Positions 50,138-54,490 of a stretch of 64,000 nt of DNA are shown one piece after another (the stretch's first letter is position 1; every line of letters starts with the position of its first letter). The notes below the pieces were generated by a model. The model did not search any database. It was not told where the DNA came from and saw only the letters and a list, made by a program, of their open reading frames with translations. Position numbers and translations under genes: made by a program. This DNA is from Halothiobacillus sp. GTDB lineage: Bacteria > Pseudomonadota > Gammaproteobacteria > Halothiobacillales > Halothiobacillaceae. Where the stretch lies: the NCBI GenBank assembly GCA_023255735.1, contig JAGDVP010000010.1, forward strand, positions 1 through 64,000, written 5' to 3'.

Positions 50138-51415
50138 TCATGACGCAGGGATGCTGGATTCGTTGTTTGCAGGCGGGGTGGGGTCGGATGCTAAAAATAC
50201 GGCATCGCCTTCGATGCGAATGGGCACGGCTTGCAGGCTCGTGCCCGGGCAAGGGCCTTGGGTGCAGGCGCCGCTTTGAATATCAAACTGCGCATGATGC
50301 ACGGCGCAGCGCAGCGTGAGGCCATCGGGTTGGCCTGTCAGATACCCGCGCCGGGTTTTGCACAAAGGCGAGCCGTTGTGCGGGCAGCTATTGCGATAAG
50401 CGTAGAGGGCTTTATGGGCGCGCACCACGATGATGCTTGGGACGCCATTTTGCGGGCGAACGCCCACGGCATCGGCTGGCCCCAAATCATCTAAGTGGCA
50501 CAGGGGTTCTATTGGGTTGGCTTGTTGGTTGGCTTGTGTGTTCAATCCATCAAAGCCGATTTGCCTAATTTTTTGTTCCGCAAGGCGCACGCCAAAGGTC
50601 ACGGCGGGCGACCAATCGGCGGTGGCAGCCCCGCTTGCACGCGCATGAATAACGCCGGCAATTAAGGTGTCGCCAGCCCCCAGGGTGTCTACTACCGGAT
50701 TGACGATTTGGCTCGGTATGCTGTGAATCGTGCCCAGCTGCGGCGCCAGCCAATAAGCACCCGCCGCGCCCCAGGCGAGAATGAGCACGGCTTGCGGTGC
50801 CCAATGATGCGCGGCGGTTAAAAAAGCCCGGGGGTCAGTAAAATCGCGGCCTTCTGCAAATGCGCGCGAGAAGAAAATCACATCTGGAAATTGGAACAGC
50901 TGCTCAAGGTGCGGGCGCTCTTTTTCAATTTCAAGCGATAGGGTTTGCGTGCGGCTCATGCTGCGCGCCCAAGCCAGCATGGCGGCGGTATCCATGCAGT
51001 TTCTGGCTTCAAAATGCAGCCAGTCAAACGGGGTTAAATCGATGGCGAGAAATGCGTTTAAGTCAAATTCGGGTGCATCACGATAATGCACAATGGTGCG
51101 GCTGCCATTGTGCCGATTGAGGGTGATGTAGGAGGTAGGCGCATGACCAAAGCCTATTTTTTGGCTGGGCGATAAATCGATGCCGCGCTGCGTGATTTTT
51201 GTCTGAATCAGTACACCATCGGCATCCGGGGTGAGTACGGCGGCCAGCGCGCAGTGGTGTTCAAATTGGCGCAGCACCTGCAAGGTGTTGCAGACATTGC
51301 CGCCCGTGCTCTGCCGCTGGGCTAGCGCCCGTTGCTCACTATCCTCAAGGGGGTAGTGGTCTACTTCATTGATGATGTCGATGGTGGCAATGCCAATGCC
51401 TAAGATAGAGGCCAT
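50138..51415 (-). CDS. PfkB (ketohexokinase-like) kinase fused to a Rieske domain
   Basis: A 425-aa fusion. Residues ~2-295 are a PfkB/ribokinase-fold sugar kinase most like ketohexokinase: I-G-I-A-T-I-D, G-G-N-V-C-N-T-L, Y-R-D-A-P-E-F, W-L-H-F-E-A-R-N, and the catalytic D-T-L-G-A-G-D at 243-249. Residues ~305-415 form a Rieske [2Fe-2S] domain with C-P-H (Cys344, His346) and C-A-V-H (Cys370, His373), all four cluster ligands present, then the typical G-P-C-P-G turn. Start ATG 51415 is chosen over an in-frame TTG at 51433 because GGAGCGAG precedes it. A kinase joined to a redox centre is unusual; substrate and electron partner are unknown. Confidence 0.85.
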   Translation of the reverse strand: MASILGIGIATIDIINEVDHYPLEDSEQRALAQRQSTGGNVCNTLQVLRQFEHHCALAAVLTPDADGVLIQTKITQRGIDLSPSQKIGFGHAPTSYITLNRHNGSRTIVHYRDAPEFDLNAFLAIDLTPFDWLHFEARNCMDTAAMLAWARSMSRTQTLSLEIEKERPHLEQLFQFPDVIFFSRAFAEGRDFTDPRAFLTAAHHWAPQAVLILAWGAAGAYWLAPQLGTIHSIPSQIVNPVVDTLGAGDTLIAGVIHARASGAATADWSPAVTFGVRLAEQKIRQIGFDGLNTQANQQANPIEPLCHLDDLGPADAVGVRPQNGVPSIIVVRAHKALYAYRNSCPHNGSPLCKTRRGYLTGQPDGLTLRCAVHHAQFDIQSGACTQGPCPGTSLQAVPIRIEGDAVFLASDPTPPANNESSIPAS

Positions 51416-51496: not shown

Positions 51497-52045
51497 TTAT
51501 GATGAAGGTTCAGTAGACTTGGCGAGCGTTTTTTCTTCAATCCACCAGCGCTCGGCTGAGGCATGCAGCACAAGGCAGCCCGCACCGCCATAGGCGCGCA
51601 CCTTGCCGGCCGCCCCGGGGTTTAGTACCCAAATTTCATGGTCTGTATCAATGCTGCGGTGATGGGTGTGGCCGTAGACAATCGCGCGCGCTTCTGGGTG
51701 GCGCATTCTCAGCTTCTCATGGCGCTGATGCGCGGGATTAACGCGATGGCCGTGCTCAATAACGAGCAAGCCGCCGGGCAGCTTGAGCCGTGCCAGCTCC
51801 GGCAGAGATTCGAGTAAGTGGGCGGTACCTTGCGGCCATTGATCAACGGTGTCGTTGTTGCCCCGCACTGCCATGATATGGCCTGATTTTGGTGTGGCAC
51901 GCCGCAAAATATCGGGGTCTAAAATATCACCCGCATGCACGATGACATCGCATTGCTGCATCAAGGTGAGGATTGCGCCCTCGATTGCCCCATGCGTATC
52001 GGAAATAATGCCGACGCAAACGGATGCCTGTGCTTCAAGATCCAC
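51497..52045 (-). CDS. YfcE/YsnB-type metallophosphoesterase
   Basis: A 182-aa calcineurin-like phosphodiesterase, short MJ0936/YfcE class. Metal ligands in I-I-S-D-T-H-G (~13-19), V-H-A-G-D-I-L-D (~35-42), R-G-N-N-D-T (~59-64), I-E-H-G-H and V-Y-G-H-T-H-H. GTG start at 52045, four bases behind AGGAGG; an ATG two bases earlier is out of frame. Natural substrate unknown in this family. Divergent from rlmJ. Confidence 0.88.
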   Translation of the reverse strand: MDLEAQASVCVGIISDTHGAIEGAILTLMQQCDVIVHAGDILDPDILRRATPKSGHIMAVRGNNDTVDQWPQGTAHLLESLPELARLKLPGGLLVIEHGHRVNPAHQRHEKLRMRHPEARAIVYGHTHHRSIDTDHEIWVLNPGAAGKVRAYGGAGCLVLHASAERWWIEEKTLAKSTEPSS

Positions 52046-54043: not shown

Positions 54044-54091
54044 GTTAAACCTATACTAATTAATAAGAGTAACTTTAATCAGGAGATGCCT

Positions 54092-54490
54092 ATGAAACGC
54101 CGTGAATTTATGACCACCGCCTTAGCCGGCACTGCCGTCCTTGCCCTGTCATCTCAAGCTGCTCACGCGGCACCGCATGCGCAAGAAAATGTGGTGTTTG
54201 ATGCGCAAAACCCCGGCCACTGGAAATCCGTGGAGGCACTCCATGTGCCCATTATTGAGCGTAAGGGCAGCCAAATAACCATTAGAACCCCACATCCGAT
54301 GAGCGAGGATCATTACATCGTGAGCCATACCGTGGTGTTGGCGGGCGGCAAGTTTCTAGATCGAAAAACCTTTAGCTGGAAAGATCAACCGGTATCAGAG
54401 CACACCTTGCCGACCGGCTACACCGGCAAAATTACCATAACGAGCACCTGCAATTTGCATGATTTTTGGATCAAAGAAACGCAGGTTTAA
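54092..54490 (+). CDS. Tat-exported superoxide reductase-like (desulfoferrodoxin-family) protein
   Basis: A 132-aa protein with a twin-arginine leader (M-K-R-R-E-F-M-T-T-A-L-A-G, cleavage near A-H-A at 26) and a superoxide-reductase domain. All expected iron ligands can be placed: His51 (A-L-H-V-P), His68 and His74 (H-P-M-S-E-D-H, six apart), Cys120 and His123 (C-N-L-H). This is the one-iron, class II type without the N-terminal rubredoxin-like centre. Known function: one-electron reduction of superoxide to peroxide; classically cytoplasmic in anaerobes, here periplasmic. AGGAG precedes the ATG. Follows cysZ by 48 bases. Confidence 0.82.
   Translation: MKRREFMTTALAGTAVLALSSQAAHAAPHAQENVVFDAQNPGHWKSVEALHVPIIERKGSQITIRTPHPMSEDHYIVSHTVVLAGGKFLDRKTFSWKDQPVSEHTLPTGYTGKITITSTCNLHDFWIKETQV

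Follow-up and report, generated by a model that had tools for sequence, protein, structure and literature searches.

Kinase and Rieske domains in a single gene

The window analysed here is a 64,000-nucleotide stretch of Halothiobacillus sp. DNA (positions 1 to 64,000 of contig JAGDVP010000010.1, assembly GCA_023255735.1), and our subject is a single open frame on its reverse strand (50138..51415, with the ATG at 51415) that encodes a 425-amino-acid protein joining a ketohexokinase-type PfkB kinase to a Rieske [2Fe-2S] domain. In Pfam searches of this product, the PfkB family covers residues 1-287 (E 4.1e-20, 72.8 bits against a cut-off of 25.8) and the Rieske family residues 304-392 (E 7.9e-12, 45.4 bits against a cut-off of 20.3), and NCBIfam returns solely sub-threshold matches, far under cut-off, on both halves. 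The fusion is one polypeptide with no evident membrane part. Its kinase domain (residues 1-292; 50540..51415, as all parts of the gene on the reverse strand) contains, in the translation, a D-T-L-G-A-G-D motif with the catalytic base at residues 243-249 (50669..50689). The Rieske domain (residues 304-410; 50186..50506) carries the ligands C344, H346, C370 and H373 and a further invariant pair, C384 and C389. A variable linker (residues 293-303; 50507..50539) connects the two; its length and sequence differ among relatives in a 26-row alignment, its non-synonymous change exceeds that of either domain, and residues 291-300 have a mean pLDDT of 61 in a single-chain model. A sequence-only reading of this stretch had described one frame holding both domains, and D243 to D249 and the four ligands are indeed where it placed them; its naming of the parts as ketohexokinase-like and Rieske is strongly supported by Pfam, by the sequence match to ketohexokinase (KHK) and by fold matches.

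Mammalian KHK (KHK-A and KHK-C; PDB 2hqq, 6ul7, 6p2d) is the best match over the whole kinase domain in both sequence and fold, and among PfkB kinases of known structure it lies nearer to the window kinase than any other; sulfofructose kinase YihV and ribokinase, also of the PfkB family, are among the closest known systems. By alignment, D13, G39, N40, N43, K165 and D249 of the window kinase correspond to D15, G41, N42, N45, K174 and D258 of KHK, of which Asp15, Gly41, Asn42, Asn45 and Asp258 are given as fructose and catalytic residues in PMC2651755; the fructose-binding and catalytic residues of mammalian KHK (PMC2651755, PMC11332825) are shared with the bacterial kinases. Among 113 kinases, D13, G39 and N40 are present in all 113, N43 in 112, and D249 in all 112 that have a letter at that column, the remaining one having a gap. 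GAGD is replaced by AAGD in 19 of the 112, and the catalytic Asp stays. Because the catalytic Asp and the fructose-site residues are retained, we rule out on residues that this half is a pseudokinase. That the first half is a ketohexokinase-type kinase is strongly supported, and its most likely activity, as predicted by homology, is the ATP-dependent phosphorylation of a ketose at the C1 hydroxyl, the ketose being fructose or a close relative.

The Rieske half has complete C-x-H and C-x2-H ligand motifs, and in fold and sequence it resembles Rieske carriers of the oxygenase and NirD types. The four ligands, together with D249 of the kinase, are invariant across the 26-row alignment, which comprises the window protein, 24 relatives from the order and one fusion from outside it. 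In a separate Rieske alignment all 24 sequences keep the ligands and the further Cys pair; this pair lies in a GxCxxGPC motif (50249-50266, reverse strand) and is invariant in fused and free-standing members both. Such conservation argues for a working cluster, and binding of a [2Fe-2S] cluster is predicted by homology. The Rieske ferredoxins of ring-hydroxylating dioxygenases (BphF/BphA3, CarAc) and NirD resemble it in fold and match in sequence over the ligand loops, and the NirD and HcaC families of NCBIfam match this half far under their cut-offs. These ferredoxins differ from the window's family in that the latter is tied to or beside a sugar kinase and has the invariant GxCxxGPC pair, whereas 3gce and 2i7f show the second Cys only.

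The fusion is conserved in the order. We searched 27 genomes, including the window's own (2.06 Mb in 29 contigs), counting as a match E 1e-5 or better; 26 match the fused protein, the one without a match being an 85% complete genome (G007), and 25 (the window's genome and 24 others) contain the complete fused frame. The sequence-only reading had proposed checking the junction in relatives, and it is in frame, with no stop between the domains, in each of the order's 25 fused proteins. The closest named kin are Halothiobacillus records, at up to 82% identity, and the window protein is 46-82% identical to its 24 relatives. Against three of these relatives, dN/dS is 0.12-0.17 for the kinase, 0.16-0.18 for the Rieske part and 0.7-1.1 for the last 15 residues. 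Chance is excluded because of this conservation in 24 relatives and the dN/dS of 0.12-0.18 in both domains. We also considered that a sequencing or assembly error, or a missed stop, had joined two genes. Separate adjacent genes on the same strand do exist (L042, L043 and others), those of L042 and L043 outside the order and with a stop between them, a pattern that the sequence-only reading had named as a sign of a sequencing error, but the fusion is intact in 25 of the 27 order genomes; with the alignment and dN/dS this rules out an artefact, to which we assign a negligible probability. The kinase-Rieske fusion is therefore real.

Spread and origin of the pairing

In a class sample of 369 genomes searched with a profile of the fused family, 149 match at 1e-25 or better; the kinase and Rieske counts that follow are lower bounds, taken from the matches listed (down to about 2e-29). 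The kinase occurs in at least 102 of the 369 genomes, 4 of them from the window's family and 98 others. At the 98 kinase loci outside the window's family, with flanks of up to 5 kb searched by kinase and Rieske profiles, the kinase is fused to a Rieske domain in 5, is immediately followed by a co-directional Rieske gene in 30, is immediately preceded by a Rieske gene in 1 (L170) and has none in the flank in 62. The Rieske family is thus the commonest found directly at the kinase (36 of 98 loci, fused or adjacent). In the 30 downstream pairs, 11-95 bp separate the domain ends; in two of them (L163, L167) the Rieske frame is partial and the second ligand pair falls outside the view, and the other partners retain the ligand motif. 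The two-gene modules (L042, L043, L148, L166 and others of the class) consist of the same families, adjacent and on the same strand, as two polypeptides instead of one. The matched KHK chains, in contrast, are about 300 residues long and end with the kinase, whereas these bacterial kinases, of predicted activity, are so often fused to or beside a Rieske domain. The functional link between kinase and Rieske domain that had been read from the window alone is supported by these gene pairs and by the further fusions in other families.

Among the matches listed, a Rieske gene of the same family is found anywhere in the genome in 57 of 102 genomes with the kinase versus 47 of 267 without it, a hand count to which four adjacent partners found in the loci were added and in which genomes are not independent. 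In a phylum sample of 249 genomes, the kinase is present in 2, the window's and one matched over the kinase part only (G592), and 11 match over the Rieske part, one of these (G458) over a range that starts in the kinase part and contains stops. A free Rieske gene of the same family also lies downstream of an apparent ROK-type sugar kinase, named by eye (L202:3750-5333). Because Rieske-less kinases and kinase-less Rieske genes are both found, the two are each independent, and the pair is a recurring partnership that is not obligate.

We followed the origin of the fusion on a quick tree of the 113 kinases (LG+G4), which include 15 of the window family's 25 fused members, and on a careful tree built from 72 of the 113 rows (all fused and adjacent kinases and every third of the rest, with L176 omitted), whose bootstrap had not settled. 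The fused label requires 3 changes on each tree. On the careful tree a history with one change occurs in 0% of 200 bootstrap trees, and the starred branches force at least two changes. The probable ancestor is a pair of separate genes, the kinase first and the Rieske gene second, that is widespread in the class; in the Halothiobacillus family and a few other lineages this pair probably became a single gene. Fusion in two to three lineages from the two-gene state is what the counts suggest, without certainty, as they cannot separate gain from loss.

Neighbouring genes

Upstream of the window's fusion is a gene for a YfcE-type phosphodiesterase (51497..52045, reverse strand), assigned by Pfam and NCBIfam, and each of the 24 fused loci L003-L026 has yfcE no more than about 0.5 kb ahead of the fusion, in the same orientation. 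YfcE gave no tblastn match in the 100 loci L079-L178; in the window's family it may be a third part of the unit. Near the fusion, on the opposite strand, the window also encodes a 134-amino-acid protein (54086-54490, forward strand) with a twin-arginine-like start, judged by eye, and a match to desulfoferrodoxin (PF01880, 1.3e-7).

The neighbour clusters outside the window's family were read by eye and only partly tested against families. A long cNMP-binding protein adjoins the kinase in a cluster of 29 loci, with 17 of the genes within 400 bp. This protein, of about 1350-1650 amino acids, has cNMP-binding, rhodanese and FGE-sulfatase domains (by Pfam, on the L170 copy only) and often stands before the kinase, the Rieske gene or both (L170:136-4215, L148, L156, L166 and L177; by eye L183, L185 and L188), with a YjbQ/UPF0047 gene in between in L170 and L177. 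The L170 copy has a tblastn match in 32 of 100 loci, L170 included, some perhaps through one shared domain. Other kinase neighbours are a small, weakly zinc-ribbon-like protein (19 loci), a pentapeptide protein (11 loci) and a ThiO-like oxidase (8 loci, by eye), all confined to loci without a Rieske gene.

A possible redox link and its alternatives

The reading that we favour, tentatively and at somewhat below an even chance, is that of a ketohexokinase-type kinase whose C-terminal Rieske domain senses redox state and adjusts the kinase. The kinase half would phosphorylate the C1 hydroxyl of a ketose with ATP, the Rieske [2Fe-2S] domain would read how reduced the cell's electron carriers are, and the state of the Rieske domain would tune the kinase so that sugar phosphorylation tracks electron supply. 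Only the pairing leads us to infer an interaction between the two parts, and its direction from redox state to kinase. Redox control is favoured over other directions because no oxidoreductase was seen recurring beside the pair and because PF00848, a family of ring-hydroxylating oxygenases, has matches in only 5 of the 27 order genomes, the window's own among them, oxygenases outside PF00848 not having been searched. Service to a PF00848 oxygenase is thus not general, and we rejected it as the role of the Rieske domain. It is possible, though doubtful, that there is a whole family of Fe-S-gated sugar kinases, with ketohexokinase activity set by a tethered or partner Rieske cluster and put together in at least two lineages of the class.

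Several observations weigh against this reading. The single-chain model (pTM 0.81) does not settle the arrangement of the domains. The 62 kinase loci without a neighbouring Rieske gene show none at E up to 10 either, three of them (L108, L116, L123) having less than 500 bp of contig downstream of the kinase, and Rieske genes also occur without the kinase, free-standing and in varied settings. In one relative (G006, a 64% complete genome) an intact 303-amino-acid kinase frame ends at a stop in the linker, beyond which lies a broken remnant of the Rieske part. This genome also has a second copy, cut off by a contig end, and the broken locus (L027) may reflect either a genuine loss or an error in a mixed, incomplete assembly. 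A single origin of the fusion remains compatible with the data under an approximately unbiased test (p 0.0955).

If the Rieske domain simply carried electrons for some other oxidoreductase of the same pathway, the tether would bring a redox step near the sugar phosphate with no regulation of the kinase. Its likeness in fold and sequence to oxygenase-type and NirD-type carriers agrees with this, the free-standing members without a kinase fit a diffusible carrier, and a flavin oxidase-like gene (the ThiO-like one) follows the kinase in 8 loci. All 8 of these loci, however, are among the 62 that lack a Rieske neighbour, the by-eye and partly family-tested reading found no recurring oxidoreductase beside the pair, and PF00848 is as infrequent as stated above, so that we consider a plain carrier unlikely, with an appreciable chance nonetheless. 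We also regard it as unlikely that the pairing is an arrangement for co-expression or stability and the fusion a neutral loss of the stop codon between touching genes, with no redox coupling at all. The short, variable linker would suit such an event, the 11-95 bp between domain ends in the 30 pairs would make fusion easy, and the 62 of 98 kinases without a neighbouring Rieske gene and the broken Rieske frame of G006 are in keeping with it. Against it, adjacency recurs in many families, once in reversed order (L170), and the retention of the ligands and the further Cys pair by all 24 aligned sequences speaks for a functional cluster.

A further alternative, compatible with the others, concerns the substrate, which might be a ketose other than fructose or one arising from damage or sucrose breakdown, with the Rieske domain acting in that pathway. 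Among the matches listed, sucrose synthase (PF00862, E up to 1e-20) is found in 37 of 102 genomes with the kinase versus 19 of 267 without it, an association that fits fructose release in some hosts. It is confounded by genome kinship, however, and leaves the window's own family uncovered, with no PF00862 match in the window's genome or in the three family members of the class sample; we therefore rejected sucrose breakdown as the common fructose source. Since the KHK fructose-site residues are also conserved, a different substrate appears to us fairly improbable.

The mechanism that the sequence-only reading had guessed at, redox gating or an oxidation of the phosphorylated product, stays a guess, on better grounds than before. 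The known settings of Rieske clusters are electron transfer and oxygenases, and nothing on a kinase-Rieske fusion or partnership, Rieske gating of a sugar kinase included, turned up in our searches of the open-access literature. Both domain families are well known; what is new is the architecture and the recurring gene pair behind it, and the repeated association of Rieske domain and sugar kinase suggests a function not known for either family. Close relatives of human fructose kinase, reportedly a target of inhibitor development, are common in the class, as the kinase counts above attest. Because the fusion is a soluble-looking single polypeptide, its expression should be possible, and Fe-S gating of a ketohexokinase is thus directly testable. 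If redox control of the kinase is true, sugar phosphorylation in sulfur oxidisers would be coupled to the redox state of their electron transport chain.
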